64,000 bases of DNA from the IMG/VR virus record IMGVR_UViG_3300013117_000236, positions 1 to 64,000 of that record; one strand, written 5' to 3'. How positions within the stretch are numbered: position 1 is the stretch's first letter; every line of letters starts with the position of its first letter. The notes below the pieces were generated by a model. It did not search any database and was not told the DNA's origin. It was given only the letters and a program-made list of their open reading frames with translations. The DNA comes from a virus. The translations under genes and the position numbers were made by a program. This document shows positions 35,968 through 44,928 of the stretch, in pieces.

Positions 35968-36721
35968 TATGATAAGTGTAATAATGCCATATTGGAGATA
36001 TAATGGTAAGAGTATAAAATACATGAAAGAGGCATTAGATAGTTTAGCTAATCAAACTTACAAGAATTTTGAACTTAGATTGTGTTTAGATTGCCCAGAT
36101 TTAGATACTATTACAGAAGTTCGTAAGTTAATACAGAATTATGATTTTAAAACATACTTCTCCGTTAGAGATAGTCACAAACCTAGTATCTCACTAACTA
36201 GAAATGCAATAATCCCTTCCGCTGAAGGAGATTGGATTGCCTTTTTAGATGCGGATAATATATGGCATAAGGACTGGTTAGCACAAATGATAGATAGCGC
36301 GAGGAAGGTATATCCTGATGCCACATATTCAAGGGCGGCGCCTGATTTTAGAACTCTGTCCGAGGGAGAAGCTCAGTTAAAAATGTTTGAGAAATATGAT
36401 AAAGCATTTGAAGTTATTGATGAGAATCATTTTACATACTATTTAAATTGTCCTGCAAACCCGTTATTTGGGGCAGTAATGTTACATAAAGACCACATAG
36501 AGAAAATTGGTTTATTTAATGCCGAGTTAGAAATTTATGAGACGAGTTTGATGATGGCAAAGTTATTTTTGAACTTTAAAGTTCACTTTGTTAAGAAAGC
36601 ATTTCTGTTTACTAGAATATGGGAAGGGGCAATATCTACTAGGGGAGGAAATCAGAAATTAGTAGACTTTAAAAAGCTATTTCAAGACAAGGCAAGATTA
36701 TATAAGGAGAGTTTGAAATGA
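35954..36721 (+). CDS. Glycosyltransferase family 2
   Basis: 255 residues from ATG 35954. Classic GT-A start ISVIMPYWRYNGKSIKYMKE, D-x-D-like FLDADNIW near residue 92, and a C-terminal helical part. Polymerising or decorating transferase of unknown specificity. Confidence 0.82.
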   Translation: MSTNDMISVIMPYWRYNGKSIKYMKEALDSLANQTYKNFELRLCLDCPDLDTITEVRKLIQNYDFKTYFSVRDSHKPSISLTRNAIIPSAEGDWIAFLDADNIWHKDWLAQMIDSARKVYPDATYSRAAPDFRTLSEGEAQLKMFEKYDKAFEVIDENHFTYYLNCPANPLFGAVMLHKDHIEKIGLFNAELEIYETSLMMAKLFLNFKVHFVKKAFLFTRIWEGAISTRGGNQKLVDFKKLFQDKARLYKESLK

Positions 36722-37482
36722 GTTATCCAACATCAGTATGGATGGAAACAACGAATATTTGTAATTATAGATGTATGTTTTGTCCACGAGAATTAATAAA
36801 AAAAACACAGAAAATTATGAGCTTAGAAGAGTTCAAAGTTATTGCAGATAAGTTAAAAGAAGCGGGAATAACTATTGGATGTATGAGTGGGTATGGTGAA
36901 CCGTTACTAGACCCAACATTGTATGATAAATATAAGTATGGTAGAGAGATTGGAGTATTTAGAGGTATAGTAGGGATAAATACTAATGGTTCATTACTAA
37001 CGAGAGATAAGTGGGATACTATATTAGAAAATTCTGATTTTTTAACAATATCATGTGTTAATACTCATGATGACTATAGATTACTAACAGGTTATAGTTG
37101 GACGATTTTTTATAAGAAAGTTACCGAATTTATTATTGAGAGAAACATTAAAAAACCAGAATTCGTAATTAATATTGGATGTAATAAAGTAGAAGGACAT
37201 GATTTAGATAAAGTTAATAAGGCATTTAGAGGATATAATGTTAATATTATAGGTGACCCCGGTATTAAATGGACAAATAGCATAAAAGGACCAACATATT
37301 GTGATATGGAAGATGGGCACATGACAATATTAGTTGATGGTACTTGTACAAATTGTTGCTTTGATTTTAATGGTGAAAATTCGTTTGGTAACATACTAAC
37401 AGATTCAGTTGAGCAGATAAAGGAAAACTTCACAAAAAAGAAAGACTTTCCATTATGTAAGAGGTGTGATTATGTCGGCTAG
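36718..37482 (+). CDS. Radical SAM protein with SPASM-like C-terminus
   Basis: 254 residues. CNYRCMFC (C-x3-C-x2-C) near residues 14-21 binds the SAM-cleaving 4Fe-4S cluster; GYGEPLLDP follows. The C-terminal CTNCCFDF...FGNI...CKRCD pattern resembles the SPASM/twitch auxiliary cluster. Radical SAM enzymes in glycan clusters modify sugars (dehydration, epimerisation, C-C bonds); the substrate is unknown. Unusual in a viral cargo. Confidence 0.82.
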   Translation: MSYPTSVWMETTNICNYRCMFCPRELIKKTQKIMSLEEFKVIADKLKEAGITIGCMSGYGEPLLDPTLYDKYKYGREIGVFRGIVGINTNGSLLTRDKWDTILENSDFLTISCVNTHDDYRLLTGYSWTIFYKKVTEFIIERNIKKPEFVINIGCNKVEGHDLDKVNKAFRGYNVNIIGDPGIKWTNSIKGPTYCDMEDGHMTILVDGTCTNCCFDFNGENSFGNILTDSVEQIKENFTKKKDFPLCKRCDYVG

Positions 37483-38662
37483 AGGTATGAGAGTATTCGT
37501 TATAGGAGTACCAAGGTCAGGAACAACTGTAATGTTAGAAGCAATATCTCGATACCCAGGATTTAAATTTTATAATCAGAAACTTGAACATTACCCAACT
37601 TCACCTGAGGTAGATGCGATTATTAATAGTGGAGTAAATGTTGTAATGAAATTGCCCGGAATGTGTTTTGATTTTCCAAAACATTATAGAATGTTTCCAG
37701 AAGCAAAATGGATATTAATGACGAGAGAATTGGAAGGTTTAAAAAAGTCTTATGAAAAGTTTAGTAAGTTTAGAACATTGAAAAACATAACTGTAAAAGG
37801 AATGATTGACCCAGAACAGGTAAGGGAGAAGTATATGGCAATGATTAGTGAGTATGGTAATTATGATAATTGTATGATTGTTTCACTTGAAGATTTTCAA
37901 AATAGTAGTGTGGTTGTGATGATTGATGTACTTAAATTCTTAGGACTAGAATATAAAATAGATGTAATGAACTTCGTAGATAAGTATGTCGCGAAAGTTG
38001 CGCCAAAAGATTATCCTCTCACTGCAAGGTCATTTGAACGCGATAATGGAGAGTATATGGAGTTTGAACAAATGGGAGAAGTAGAGGCCCAAAACTTTAT
38101 GAAAACAAAAGAAGACCAAGAAATAAGGGGAATAATGAGGGAACATGTTAGTGGAATAGGTGGTATGGTATTAGATGCTGGTTGTGGTAGAGGTATTGAT
38201 AGTCAAAGATATCATCATACAAGATATGTTGGTATGGATATATCTCAACCTTTAATTAGTATAGCAATGAAGAATAATCCAGAACATAATTATGAAGTAG
38301 AAGATTTGAGAAGAATACCACATGAAAATAATGAGTTTGATAATGTAATATGTTTGTCTGTATTTGAACAACTCCATTCAGAAGACGATGCTATATTAGT
38401 GTTTAAAGAGTTAATTAGAGTATGTAATAAACAGTTATTAATTGGATGGTATGCACAACCACGAGAAATAACTAAAAGCGAAATTAATATTGTAAAAGCT
38501 GATGATGTAAATAGAAAAGTATTTCAAAATATATATAGTAATAAAAGATTTAATGAAGTGATAACAAAAGTTGGTGCTAAACTTGAAGTAATTAATATAG
38601 ATGAGACATGGGTACTATGGAAGATAAATTTAGAAGGGATTAACAAGGAGGCGAAAAAATGA
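37472..38662 (+). CDS. Fused sulfotransferase and SAM methyltransferase
   Basis: 396 residues. N-terminal half: VPRSGTT at 13-19 is the 5'-phosphosulfate-binding loop of PAPS-dependent sulfotransferases, with WILMTRELEG as the 3'-phosphate-binding region. C-terminal half: VLDAGCGRG (about 233-241) and YVGMDIS are class I methyltransferase motifs. One polypeptide could sulfate and methylate the same glycan. Start 37472 (ATG) rather than GTG 37466. An APS kinase lies 1.4 kb downstream. Confidence 0.78.
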   Translation: MSARGMRVFVIGVPRSGTTVMLEAISRYPGFKFYNQKLEHYPTSPEVDAIINSGVNVVMKLPGMCFDFPKHYRMFPEAKWILMTRELEGLKKSYEKFSKFRTLKNITVKGMIDPEQVREKYMAMISEYGNYDNCMIVSLEDFQNSSVVVMIDVLKFLGLEYKIDVMNFVDKYVAKVAPKDYPLTARSFERDNGEYMEFEQMGEVEAQNFMKTKEDQEIRGIMREHVSGIGGMVLDAGCGRGIDSQRYHHTRYVGMDISQPLISIAMKNNPEHNYEVEDLRRIPHENNEFDNVICLSVFEQLHSEDDAILVFKELIRVCNKQLLIGWYAQPREITKSEINIVKADDVNRKVFQNIYSNKRFNEVITKVGAKLEVINIDETWVLWKINLEGINKEAKK

Positions 38663-39207
38663 AGTATCCTTATAAAGAATTTTTTAGAGGAGTATATGAA
38701 AATATGAATAACTTAATAACTAAAGATGATGTTGTAGTCGAAGTAGGATGTAGGGATGACAGGTGTGTAATTAGTAATAGAATGTTTAATTGCAAGAAAT
38801 TTATTGGAATTGATAAGGACGATAAGAGAGTATTAAGTGGTATGGAGTTTATAATTATGGATGCTGTAACTGAGGAGTTGCCAAAGTGTGACATAATGAT
38901 TACAACTGCATTGATTCAACATTACCCAAAAGAAGACTTACACAAAATTATGAAAAATTTATCAATTAATACAAGAAAATACTTAATGTTAACTTGTCCT
39001 AATAGAGAAGTTCAACCAAAAGTATATGGAGACCACAAGTACCATCCTACTATAGGGGAGATAGTAGGAGAGTTAAGTAAGATAGGATTTAAAAGGGAAG
39101 TAGTTTACTATCATAGAGATTATATAAATAAAGAGTTTAAACCAACGGGAGAATTTATAATGGTTGAAAAGGGAGCATTTACAATAGTTGCAAGGAGGAG
39201 AGTATGA
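38659..39207 (+). CDS. SAM-dependent methyltransferase, small
   Basis: 182 residues: VVVEVGCRDDRCVISN as motif I (G-C-R-D in place of G-x-G), FIGIDKDDKR as motif II, ALIQHYPKEDL. A short class I methyltransferase; ATGA overlap with the fusion gene before it. Confidence 0.7.
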   Translation: MKYPYKEFFRGVYENMNNLITKDDVVVEVGCRDDRCVISNRMFNCKKFIGIDKDDKRVLSGMEFIIMDAVTEELPKCDIMITTALIQHYPKEDLHKIMKNLSINTRKYLMLTCPNREVQPKVYGDHKYHPTIGEIVGELSKIGFKREVVYYHRDYINKEFKPTGEFIMVEKGAFTIVARRRV

Positions 39208-39800
39208 TATATGAAGACTTTTATCCGATAACTGATGAGTTGGCTTTAATAACATCTGGTGAAGATTACGAACATTTACAGTGGCTAAAAATAGTTACTT
39301 ATAAAGTAGGTTCGGATAGTAAGGTAATAATTACTAATGATGTAGCGTTTAAGAAAGGTACACATATTAGATTGGGAAATATATATAATGGAAAGATAGT
39401 TTATAGTGATAATAATGTGATAGAACCATTCAATATTAAAGGAGAACAGCCCTTTATGACTAATAGAGGAGTATTATATACCAATGATGGAGGAATATAT
39501 GAAAAAACATTTTCAGGTATTACAATAAAAGTTATACCAGATATAAATAATGTGAAAATAATAGACTTATGGGGAGATATTAAAGAATTAGGTAATCCTT
39601 GTGAACATGATGGGTGGATTTACTTCGAGGCAAGGAAAGAACCTGCGCCTATGGGTTGGCAAATTTGGAAATTTAATATTAAAACTAGTGAAAGGAAGTT
39701 AGTAAGAGAATATGGTGCTAATCCTTATGTGTTTCGAGGAAAGTTATACTTTAGCAAATGGGATGGAAAGAAATTTGAAACATTAGTGGAGGAACTATGA
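39204..39800 (+). CDS. Beta-rich protein, propeller-like, 198 aa
   Basis: Repeated four-stranded units with motifs such as RLGNIYNGKIVYSDNNV and PYVFRGKLYFSKWDGKKF suggest beta-propeller blades. Overlaps neighbours in the glycan operon. May bind or process sugars; no catalytic residue is identified. Confidence 0.5.
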   Translation: MIYEDFYPITDELALITSGEDYEHLQWLKIVTYKVGSDSKVIITNDVAFKKGTHIRLGNIYNGKIVYSDNNVIEPFNIKGEQPFMTNRGVLYTNDGGIYEKTFSGITIKVIPDINNVKIIDLWGDIKELGNPCEHDGWIYFEARKEPAPMGWQIWKFNIKTSERKLVREYGANPYVFRGKLYFSKWDGKKFETLVEEL

Positions 39801-40126
39801 AATATTCATTATTCATCGGTAGATGGCAACCCTTTCATGAAGGTCATAAGAAAATGATACAAAAAGTAATAGATGAAGGAAAGAAACCTCTTATAGCGAT
39901 AAGGAATACTCCTATTAATAAAGATAATCCATATACTTTGACAGAGAGAGTAAGAATGATTGAAAAAGAATTTCCAGAAAACGTTAAAATAGTAATTATA
40001 CAAGATATAGAAGAAATATGTTATGGAAGAGATGTAGGATATAAAATCAGGGAAATAAAACTCGACGAGGAAACTGAGAAAATATCAGGGACGGGGATTA
40101 GAAATGATAACGTGGATAACAGGTAA
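39797..40126 (+). CDS. HIGH-type nucleotidyltransferase, compact
   Basis: 109 residues: FIGRWQPFHEGHKKMIQKVI with the H-x-G-H nucleotide-binding motif at about 14-17 and ISGTGIR near the end. This is the cytidylyltransferase/NMN-adenylyltransferase/ATP-sulfurylase fold at minimal size. Next to an APS kinase, an adenylyl transfer to sulfate is conceivable; nicotinamide or sugar-phosphate substrates are alternatives. Confidence 0.7.
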   Translation: MKYSLFIGRWQPFHEGHKKMIQKVIDEGKKPLIAIRNTPINKDNPYTLTERVRMIEKEFPENVKIVIIQDIEEICYGRDVGYKIREIKLDEETEKISGTGIRNDNVDNR

Positions 40127-40439
40127 TAGTGGAGCAGGTAAAACAAGATTAGCGAAATCATTACAGGCAAAATACGGTGGAGTAATACTCGATGGTGAAG
40201 ATATGAGAAGATGTTGGGACGACGTTAGATTTACAAAAGATGATAGATGGAAACATAATATAAGAATTGCACAACTTGCCAAAATAATTGATAATCAGGG
40301 AATTGATGTTATAGTAGCTACAATTTGTCCTTACAAAGAATTAAGAGATAGGATTAAAATGATAATAAATTGTAGATTTATATACCTTGATGGTGGTAAG
40401 CCGTCAAGTAAGGAGTATCCGTATGAATTGGTTGGGTAA
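40104..40439 (+). CDS. Adenylylsulfate kinase-like P-loop protein (CysC-like)
   Basis: 111 residues, shorter than typical CysC (about 180-200). GNSGAGKT at 7-14 and LDGEDMRR at about 29-36 match the P-loop and the LDGD-x-R segment of APS kinase, which makes PAPS from APS and ATP. C-terminal DGGKPSSKEYPYE resembles the CysC end (SPYE-type). With the sulfotransferase nearby this is a coherent sulfate-donor set; the shortened middle could mean another small-molecule kinase. Confidence 0.7.
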   Translation: MITWITGNSGAGKTRLAKSLQAKYGGVILDGEDMRRCWDDVRFTKDDRWKHNIRIAQLAKIIDNQGIDVIVATICPYKELRDRIKMIINCRFIYLDGGKPSSKEYPYELVG

Positions 40440-40950
40440 TGTAGTTAGTAAACATATAGAACCTGGTGATACTATATTGGATTTAGGATGTGGAGTGATG
40501 GGCGCAACGTTAGACACATTAGAATGGAATAATAATTATCCTAATAGATTAAATAATGTGATAGTTGGTGTTGATATGTATGTCCCTTATTTGAAAAGGA
40601 TTAAAGATTTAAAAAATATAATTGCATTACGTCTTAACATAAAGGACTTAAGTATATTTATGGACAAAAGTTTTGATGTTGTTATGGGATTAGATGTTGT
40701 TGAACACGTAAGGGAACCAATCGCATATGAATTAATAAGGGAAATGGAACGTATAGCACGAAAAAAAGTAATAATTTATACTCCTATAGAATTTAAAGAA
40801 CAAGATAAACTAAATGCCTGGGAATTGGGTGTTAATGAGTATCAAAGACATTTCTGTCACATTCCTCCTTACTGGTTTGAAAATAACGGGTATAAGGTTA
40901 CATTTCCGAAACCAGACGAGAATACATTAGCGGTAAAGGTGATTAAATGA
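40423..40950 (+). CDS. SAM-dependent methyltransferase
   Basis: 175 residues from ATG 40423. TILDLGCGVMGATLD (motif I), VGVDMYVPY (motif II), FDVVMGLDVVEHV (motif IV). Free-standing class I methyltransferase, probably acting on glycans or metabolites of this cluster. Confidence 0.75.
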   Translation: MNWLGNVVSKHIEPGDTILDLGCGVMGATLDTLEWNNNYPNRLNNVIVGVDMYVPYLKRIKDLKNIIALRLNIKDLSIFMDKSFDVVMGLDVVEHVREPIAYELIREMERIARKKVIIYTPIEFKEQDKLNAWELGVNEYQRHFCHIPPYWFENNGYKVTFPKPDENTLAVKVIK

Positions 40951-42915: not shown

Positions 42916-44441
42916 CTGAAAAACAACCATTAATAAGTGTGATAATGCCAGTATATAATCAGAAGAAAGAATACTTAAAGAAAGCAATATTTTCTGTATT
43001 AGACCAAACATTTAGAAACTTAGAATTAATAATAGTTGATGATGGTAGTGATAAGCTAGTTAAGTTAGAAGACTACCTTTTACCGAGTAATATAGAGAGT
43101 AGAAATGTTAAGTTAATTAGAAAAGAAAATGGTGGTGTTGCTTCTGCACTTAACGCTGGTATTAATGCCATGAAAGGTCAATGGTTTGCTTGGTTATCAA
43201 GTGATGATATATGGACACCAGATAAGTTACATAAACAAGTAGATTATAAATTAAAGAACCCAGATGCAAAGGTAATATACTCTGATTGGGAGTATATTGA
43301 TGAAAATGGTAATCACATGAAGTATGAAACTGAACCTATATTTAAAAACTTAGAAGAAGTACAGTTTCACCTTTGTCATAAGTTTTTTGGGTGTGGGTCA
43401 ACTATTATGATTCAAAAAGAAGTGTTTGATAAAGTTGGTAAATTTAATGAAGAGTATAGGTCACACGAAGATTATGAAATGTGGTTTAGGATTGCTAAAG
43501 AGTATATGTTTCACAAAGTTCCTCTAGTACTAATGCAGTATAGAGAACATGGTAAAGCATTAAGATATACAGCTAATGCTATAGGGGGAACATTTAATAA
43601 AGTGAGAGAAGATGGGAGGAAATTATTGGATTATTATGGTAAATTAGATAAAGTAAGTATTGTAATTGCCGCATATAACGTTGAAAACACAATTTGTGGT
43701 TGTTTAGATATAGTATTAAATACTAGGGGAGTTGATGAAGTGTTTGTAATTGATGATGCAAGTACTGATAATACAAGAAAGATATTAGATGGATTCTCCC
43801 ATCCAAATTTAATAATCATAAATAATGCAAAGAATATGGGGAGAGCAATAACCCGAAATAAGGGATTAAAGAAAGCAAAAAATCATCTAATTGCTACAAT
43901 TGATGGTGACATTATTCCAGACTTTAATTGGTTAGCAATTTTGAAAAAGAAGATGGAAAATATGTGGTTAGATGTTTGTGGAGGTTCAGTAAGGTGGAAA
44001 TCTGTAAGTGGAGGTTACTGGACGGATTATTATGATTTTTATCAAACTCAAGTTGCAAAAAGAAGTATTGGTACATGTTTAACATTATTTAAGAGAAGTG
44101 CGTTAGAAAGTGTTGGATTCCTAGATGAAGCATTAACAAGTGGTGAAGATAGTGAAATGATGTTTAGAATGCAACAAAAAGGATTTCAATTTTACAAGAT
44201 TCATGATTTACTAGGAACACATATAGAAGAAAGAAATTTGTTTGATGTAATAAAGAGACATTATGAATACGGAGTAGATAGGGCAATAATGGTTAAAAAA
44301 CACCCAGATAAAGTGAAAGGACAATTTAACGAGAACGAAACTCAACATAATCCTGCAGAAATTGTAAATATATTACAAGAATTATTAAAATTAATAGGTA
44401 CGTTAGGATTTAGAGAGGAATATTTAAAAGATGGGAGATAG
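42912..44441 (+). CDS. Double-domain glycosyltransferase (GT2-GT2)
   Basis: 509 residues with two complete GT-A domains. Domain 1 (about 8-230): ISVIMPVYNQKKEYLKKAI, IIVDDGSD, SSDDIW. Domain 2 (about 245-480): VSIVIAAYNVENTICGCLD, VFVIDDASTDNT, TIDGDIIPD. Bi-functional enzymes of this type polymerise alternating sugars or add two sugars in sequence. Last glycan gene of the cargo. Confidence 0.85.
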   Translation: MTEKQPLISVIMPVYNQKKEYLKKAIFSVLDQTFRNLELIIVDDGSDKLVKLEDYLLPSNIESRNVKLIRKENGGVASALNAGINAMKGQWFAWLSSDDIWTPDKLHKQVDYKLKNPDAKVIYSDWEYIDENGNHMKYETEPIFKNLEEVQFHLCHKFFGCGSTIMIQKEVFDKVGKFNEEYRSHEDYEMWFRIAKEYMFHKVPLVLMQYREHGKALRYTANAIGGTFNKVREDGRKLLDYYGKLDKVSIVIAAYNVENTICGCLDIVLNTRGVDEVFVIDDASTDNTRKILDGFSHPNLIIINNAKNMGRAITRNKGLKKAKNHLIATIDGDIIPDFNWLAILKKKMENMWLDVCGGSVRWKSVSGGYWTDYYDFYQTQVAKRSIGTCLTLFKRSALESVGFLDEALTSGEDSEMMFRMQQKGFQFYKIHDLLGTHIEERNLFDVIKRHYEYGVDRAIMVKKHPDKVKGQFNENETQHNPAEIVNILQELLKLIGTLGFREEYLKDGR

Positions 44442-44442
44442 T

Positions 44443-44928
44443 ATGGATTTAAATTGGTTACTAGGATTTATTGAAGGTGAAGGGAGTTTTGTAGTAACTA
44501 TACACAAACAGTATGGACACAAATGGGGAATTTGTACCCAACCAAAGTTTACAATTTGTTTGGGTAGATGGGATTTAGAAACATTAGAAGAAATACAAAC
44601 TTTTTTACTTGAAGACTATAATATTGAATCAAGAATAGAACATAGAAATAGAGATAATAATAATCAATTAGTAATAAATAAAGTAGAAAGTTGTTTCAAT
44701 TTAATTCCATTACTTAATAACTTAGAATGGCATACAAATAAAAGAAGAGACTATAATATTTGGAGTTATATAGTAGGAATGGTATTGAGAAAAGAACATA
44801 AGACAAAAGATGGATTGTTAAAAATATTCCTACTTAGAGAAGAAATGAACAAAAATACAAATAGACGCAACACACAAGGAAAAAACGATGTACTTAGAGA
44901 AGAAATATTAAAAATTGGAGGTGATTAA
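44443..44928 (+). CDS. LAGLIDADG homing endonuclease, single motif
   Basis: 161 residues from ATG 44443, which overlaps the previous stop (TAGTATG). LNWLLGFIEGEGSFVV is the LAGLIDADG helix with its acidic catalytic residue (GEG), followed by the beta-sheet DNA-binding part. One motif means it acts as a homodimer. It is free-standing at the junction between the glycan cargo and the tail genes. Confidence 0.85.
   Translation: MDLNWLLGFIEGEGSFVVTIHKQYGHKWGICTQPKFTICLGRWDLETLEEIQTFLLEDYNIESRIEHRNRDNNNQLVINKVESCFNLIPLLNNLEWHTNKRRDYNIWSYIVGMVLRKEHKTKDGLLKIFLLREEMNKNTNRRNTQGKNDVLREEILKIGGD

Follow-up and report, generated by a model that had tools for sequence, protein, structure and literature searches.

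The subject of this analysis is a pair of small overlapping genes in a stretch of virus DNA (the window) that comprises positions 1 to 64,000 of the 68,546-base IMG/VR virus record IMGVR_UViG_3300013117_000236. One gene encodes a HIGH-type nucleotidyltransferase of 109 residues (hereafter NT), and the other a CysC-like kinase of 111 residues (hereafter KIN). The best explanation for the pair, to which we give a probability of roughly 0.75, is that NT represents a new and compact type of ATP sulfurylase, while KIN is an adenosine 5'-phosphosulfate (APS) kinase, the two forming a module that produces 3'-phosphoadenosine 5'-phosphosulfate (PAPS) and feeds sulfotransferases. This reading draws on the linkage and fusion of the two genes, the APS-kinase fold of KIN, the PAPS-binding residues of a sulfotransferase in the same operon, and the lack of a known ATP sulfurylase in most carriers.

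KIN matches the Pfam family APS_kinase (PF01583) with 59.2 bits against a cut-off of 21.1. Its structural model, with a predicted local distance difference test score (pLDDT) of 92.2, aligns with the Archaeoglobus APS kinase 7yq0 over 110 of 111 residues (Z 15.7, 1.7 Å). In the fold search, each of the best 28 entries is an APS kinase or contains an APS-kinase domain as part of a bifunctional protein, and the first other family encountered is gluconate kinase, at Z 12.6. The motifs for ATP and APS are retained (P-loop GNSGAGKT, DGE..R, FTKDDR..N and CPYK), and KIN shares its fold, P-loop, DGD-type motif and F..DR..N motif with adenylyl-sulfate kinases (PF01583; 7yq0). The score against the full-length equivalog model TIGR00455 is 62.4 bits, under the cut-off of 138.7. 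Sequence, fold and motifs support the identification of this P-loop protein as an APS kinase, as an earlier note on this DNA had suggested.

NT matches the Pfam family CTP_transf_like (PF01467; 40.9 bits, cut-off 21), and carries the HIGH motif (GRWQPFHEGH), R36, YGRDVG (residues 76–81) and SGTGIR (97–102). Its model (pLDDT 93.3) resembles phosphopantetheine adenylyltransferases (PPAT; Z 11.4, 2.9 Å, 108 residues) and the archaeal nicotinamide mononucleotide (NMN) adenylyltransferase (NMNAT) 1f9a (Z 10.5, 2.5 Å, 106 residues, 31% identity). The fold and the HIGH and SxTxIR motifs are common to NT, archaeal NadM (1f9a/1ej2) and PPAT (CoaD), but NT lacks their acceptor-binding segment and has the family-specific R36 and YGRxVG. 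A profile alignment with MjNMNAT covers residues 5–73 and 83–106 of NT; between these blocks, about 34 residues of the enzyme are reduced to 9. The reduced segment follows the KDI strand and precedes the SGTxIR motif, and in NMNAT it carries the Trp and Asn that bind NMN. Given this replacement, the conserved substrate residues of NMN enzymes are not retained. H17, P45, G77, R78, G81 and R102 do not vary in a 78-row alignment of the NT family, and 74 of the rows have R36, while MjNMNAT has no Arg at that site. A small acceptor such as sulfate would fit the loss of the acceptor segment, and R36 and R78 may be the residues that bind it.

The similarity to 1f9a brings to mind NAD salvage, with NT as an NMN-type (NadM/NadR-like) adenylyltransferase and KIN as a nucleoside kinase. 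NadR, too, combines a HIGH domain and a P-loop kinase in one protein, and the fused form of the pair adjoins a NADAR-domain gene in Stenotrophomonas phages. Such a role is nevertheless unlikely: the NMNAT segment has shrunk as described, KIN matches APS kinase and not ribosylnicotinamide kinase, and the linkage to sulfotransferases described below would be left unexplained. Against the NadM equivalog model TIGR01527, NT reaches 42.5 bits, where the cut-off is 181.2.

The pairing of the two families is widespread. A search with the single protein found 16 virus loci, with KIN adjoining NT or fused to it in all of them. In a profile search, relatives turned up in at least 580 stretches of virus DNA and, with the NT profile, in at least 119 genome stretches, the latter from candidate-phyla bacteria, a Diapherotrites archaeon, a marine group III archaeon, a Thermoanaerobaculia bacterium and many SAR11. 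Families conserved on this scale, together with the confident models, place the observation beyond chance. Dereplication of the NT loci at 90% identity left 78 loci (from viruses, candidate-phyla bacteria, archaea and SAR11), and KIN is fused to NT or lies within 300 bp in 66 of these, including 26 fusions. The gene order depends on the clade, being NT-KIN in relatives of the window and KIN-NT in marine viruses and SAR11, which indicates that the linkage was kept through rearrangement. In three loci the partner of NT is a full-length canonical APS kinase (L059, 227 bits; L067, 144 bits; L125, 140 bits), directly fused to NT in L125. This suggests that NT takes the place of Sat or CysN in the known Sat-CysC and CysN-CysC fusions. 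The proposed chemistry, an adenylyltransferase coupled to an APS kinase, is that of the bifunctional ATP sulfurylase/APS kinases (Sat-CysC, PAPSS), and KIN aligns with the APS-kinase domains of three such proteins (1m8p, 2gks and 1x6v). NT differs from their sulfurylase part in its size (about 105 residues), its score below the PF01747 cut-off and its lack of the Sat sulfate motif, and the pair has no further domains.

The earlier note had called for a search for the same gene pair in other genomes, and a minimal two-protein sulfate-activation route in a virus had appeared new to its author. That the set is peculiar to this virus is not supported: the pair recurs, as described above, and its fused form is already a phage family, PHROG 10255. 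In members of that family, a single chain has the kinase at its N-terminus and NT at its C-terminus, and the window proteins match the two halves; in the window, by contrast, the genes are separate and in the order NT-then-KIN. PHROG names nothing beyond "kinase", and a search of the literature on virus PAPS modules found nothing on the NT-KIN pair. What is new here is not so much this virus as an enzyme family that is widespread and has gone unrecognised.

Several loci show variations on the pair. In L059 (7042–7986), the APS kinase that adjoins NT is fused to a HAD-hydrolase-like domain, which is possibly a phosphatase acting on 3'-phosphoadenosine 5'-phosphate or on PAPS. In L037 (7094–7765) and L042 (7804–8469), R36 of NT is replaced by M, KIN was not found in the locus, a sulfotransferase gene overlaps upstream, and a C-terminal extension of NT resembles MazG by eye; it may be another means of pulling the reaction. 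In the marine group III archaeon (L129:8434–10339), KIN-NT follows S-adenosylmethionine synthetase-like and adenosylhomocysteinase-like genes, and NT has Q instead of R36; a link of this locus to S-adenosylmethionine metabolism is possible.

PAPS is the shared need of the sulfotransferase families Sulfotransfer_2, _3 and _4. The distance from the NT-KIN module to such genes was tested with the Pfam model Sulfotransfer_3 (PF13469) as the only seed. Of 78 virus records that carry NT or KIN, 49 (the window record included) have a match, and in 43 of the 48 others the nearest match lies within 2.5 kb of the module. Among 22 dereplicated records longer than about 8 kb, 17 have a PF13469 match within 2.5 kb, where uniform placement would give 5.2 (P = 1.4e-8), and a sulfotransferase-KIN-NT trio is repeated in many marine virus records. 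Sulfotransfer_2 genes are neighbours in L039 (59.7 bits), L107 (25.0) and L076 (34.8), and a Sulfotransfer_4 gene in Stenotrophomonas phage Bhz60 (26.2 bits, cut-off 22.8); the homologue in Xanthomonas phage AhaSv, which also carries the kinase-NT fusion, scores below the cut-off. The Bhz60 locus (L020:4561–6324) represents cultured phages, in which a kinase-NT fusion has Sulfotransfer_4-like and NADAR genes upstream.

Such linkage could mirror the clustering of genes in viral glycan-modification islands, NT and KIN then being a sugar-phosphate nucleotidyltransferase and a kinase for sugar activation. The window pair does sit in a glycan gene island with epimerases and glycosyltransferases. 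Glycosyltransferase-2 was chosen as a control because the cupin and epimerase genes of the window yielded no relatives. Of 27 sulfotransferase-bearing records, 7 contain it, and in only 2 does it lie within 2.5 kb of NT, so that the linkage is not simply glycan-island clustering. With the trio recurring in many records, and with KIN fitting APS kinases better than sugar kinases (Z 15.7 versus 12.6), sugar activation is very unlikely.

In the window itself, NT and KIN belong to one overlapping series of open reading frames (ORFs) on the + strand, from 37466 to 40950, and every feature described in the earlier note was located where it had been placed. The genes of the series are as follows.

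37466..38662, + strand: fusion of a sulfotransferase (residues ~9–200) and a class I S-adenosylmethionine (SAM) methyltransferase (~230–325), 398 residues (PF13469, PF13649, motifs)
38659..39207, + strand: small methyltransferase-like protein (phrog_3382 methyltransferase, E 2e-6; NF041081, E 4.5e-7, below cut-off)
39204..39800, + strand: 198-residue protein with 4-bp overlaps with its operon neighbours (no family match)
39797..40126, + strand: NT, 109 residues, proposed compact ATP sulfurylase (PF01467, model, fold matches, conservation)
40104..40439, + strand: KIN, 111 residues, putative compact APS kinase (PF01583; fold match to 7yq0)
40423..40950, + strand: methyltransferase after KIN (PF08241, 31.8 bits; ATG at 40423 with AGGAG upstream)

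The very small nucleotidyltransferase gene overlapping a CysC-like kinase gene is real; the NT and KIN ORFs share 23 bases in different frames. The fusion ORF starts with GTG at 37466, the in-frame ATG at 37472 being an alternative start that the earlier note had used, and shares 4 bp with the methyltransferase-like gene that follows. The 198-residue protein had no match in Pfam, PHROG or NCBIfam, and TTG at 40387 is an alternative start for the last gene.

The fusion protein, in which the earlier note had seen a PRSGTT sulfotransferase loop joined to a class I methyltransferase, proved to be just that. It matches Sulfotransfer_3 (PF13469) with 38.8 bits (cut-off 27) and, at residues 235–322, Methyltransf_25 (PF13649) with 50 bits (cut-off 27). 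PAPS-dependent sulfotransferases bind the 5'-phosphosulfate through a loop, here PRSGTT at residues 16–21, and the 3'-phosphate through an R/S pair, here R87 and S95, eight residues apart in TRELEGLKKS. Score, loop and R/S pair all place the domain among the PAPS-dependent sulfotransferases of PF13469. In the methyltransferase part, the SAM motif is normal (DAGCGRG at 237). Neither viral contigs nor isolate phages contained a relative of the complete fusion protein (cellular genomes were not searched), so that its architecture has no counterpart among the sequences covered.

The surrounding glycan-gene island includes epimerases, glycosyltransferases and a radical SAM/SPASM protein, and is followed by a tape-measure gene. 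The radical SAM/SPASM gene (36718–37482) lies directly upstream of the fusion, with a 17 bp overlap, and may belong to the same modification pathway. A free-standing homing-endonuclease-like ORF (44431–44928) lies between the glycan island and the tail genes; it was recognised from weak PHROG HNH matches and a LAGLIDADG-like start judged by eye.

The methyltransferases of the cassette recall the phosphoramidate pathway of Campylobacter, whose genes are also adjoined by methyltransferases. In that pathway, a CysC homologue phosphorylates CDP-phosphoramidate after the action of a cytidylyltransferase. CysC homologues with changed substrates are known, and the pair might make some other 3'-phosphorylated nucleotide conjugate. 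However, no glutamine kinase or amidohydrolase partner was seen in the cassette, the neighbouring sulfotransferases of several families need PAPS and not phosphoramidate, and NT is of the HIGH type, whereas the Campylobacter cytidylyltransferase has another fold. We regard this alternative as highly improbable.

The cellular carriers bear on the source of APS. Of the 39 cellular genomes that carry the pair, 3 have Sat, 2 have CysN and 34 show neither; CysN matches were counted only over the cut-off, below which related GTPases produce noise. It could be argued that KIN is a true APS kinase acting on host APS, while NT has another role, such as handling of the sulfated product or regulation, since only KIN has clear APS-specific homology and Sat or CysN is available in 5 of the 39 carriers. 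This is quite unlikely, given that NT is a conserved partner, often fused, even to full-length APS kinases, and that most carriers show no other APS source.

The two-enzyme PAPS module can also be compared with the distribution of sulfotransferases in cells. Sulfotransfer_3 was found in 8 of 15 candidate-phyla carriers, which come from several classes, versus 31 of 334 genomes of one such class (P = 4e-5). Within that class of 334 genomes, full-length NT occurs in 2, and 29 others have weak matches, mostly to the N-terminal NMNAT-like part; a test of NT-sulfotransferase co-occurrence across the class failed, full-length NT being too rare (2/334). Among 197 Pelagibacterales genomes, NT is present in 151 and a sulfotransferase in 156. 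A proteome study of Pelagibacter reported cysC in 5 of 7 and cysQ in 7 of 7 genomes compared, with cysD and cysN rare, cysH absent, and sat stated to be absent (PMC5069961). This cysC probably corresponds to KIN, and the NT-KIN module would then give it its substrate.

Several observations weigh against the proposed module. The nearest folds of NT are those of PPAT and NMNAT, to which all of the best 50 entries listed belong; that no ATP sulfurylase is among these 50 rules nothing out. NT scores 12 bits against the ATP-sulfurylase model PF01747, under the cut-off of 24.3, and it has GRWQPFHEGH in place of the sulfate-binding motif QxRN that precedes HxxH in Sat. The window KIN lacks, by alignment, the C-terminal lid of about 35 residues typical for APS kinases, this region being reduced to under 10 residues, although full-length kinases occur in related loci. 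KIN was not detected in 7 of the dereplicated loci with NT, and some of the loci, most notably L005, L006, L013 and L129 from the archaeon, showed no sulfotransferase nearby. The SAR11 pairs are not adjacent to a sulfotransferase, and NT-sulfotransferase co-occurrence in SAR11 is weak (P = 0.037). Many carrier genomes are incomplete, and the absence of Sat and CysN from them is no proof. The earlier note had held that a best structural match of NT to NMN or sugar-phosphate enzymes with conserved substrate residues, or a lack of PAPS-binding residues in the fusion, would speak against a two-protein PAPS route; the match to PPAT and NMNAT was found, the conserved NMN residues were not, the PAPS-binding residues are present, and the idea of such a route is supported by the recurrent linkage of NT, KIN and sulfotransferase. 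By the tests run, NT lies outside the known ATP-sulfurylase families, yet the genomic evidence predicts that it works like one.

In the proposed mechanism, NT would move AMP from ATP onto inorganic sulfate, yielding APS and pyrophosphate. KIN would phosphorylate the 3'-OH of APS to give PAPS, and this step would pull the unfavourable first one. PAPS would then go to the adjacent sulfotransferase, while the methyltransferases, both the fused one and those nearby, may act on the same acceptor, which is probably a sugar made by the surrounding glycan genes.

Phage sulfotransferases have been recorded, and their role has been called unclear (PMC10580990). In the broader interpretation, which we consider reasonably probable, NT founds a new, independent class of ATP sulfurylases, exceptionally small at about 105 residues, that arose from the NMNAT/PPAT branch of the HIGH superfamily. 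Together with a partner APS kinase, it would be the source of PAPS in viruses, candidate-phyla bacteria, some archaea and most SAR11, and this would explain how SAR11 can retain cysC, cysQ and sulfotransferases with no known enzyme to activate sulfate. If true, hundreds of genes now annotated as "nucleotidyltransferase", "kinase" or "cysC" would have their annotation corrected, and enzymology would gain a tiny two-protein PAPS maker. Viruses would equip hosts that have no sulfate activation of their own with this capacity and could sulfate host or virion molecules, and the new class of ATP sulfurylase would fill a gap in SAR11, which are among the most abundant bacteria of the ocean.

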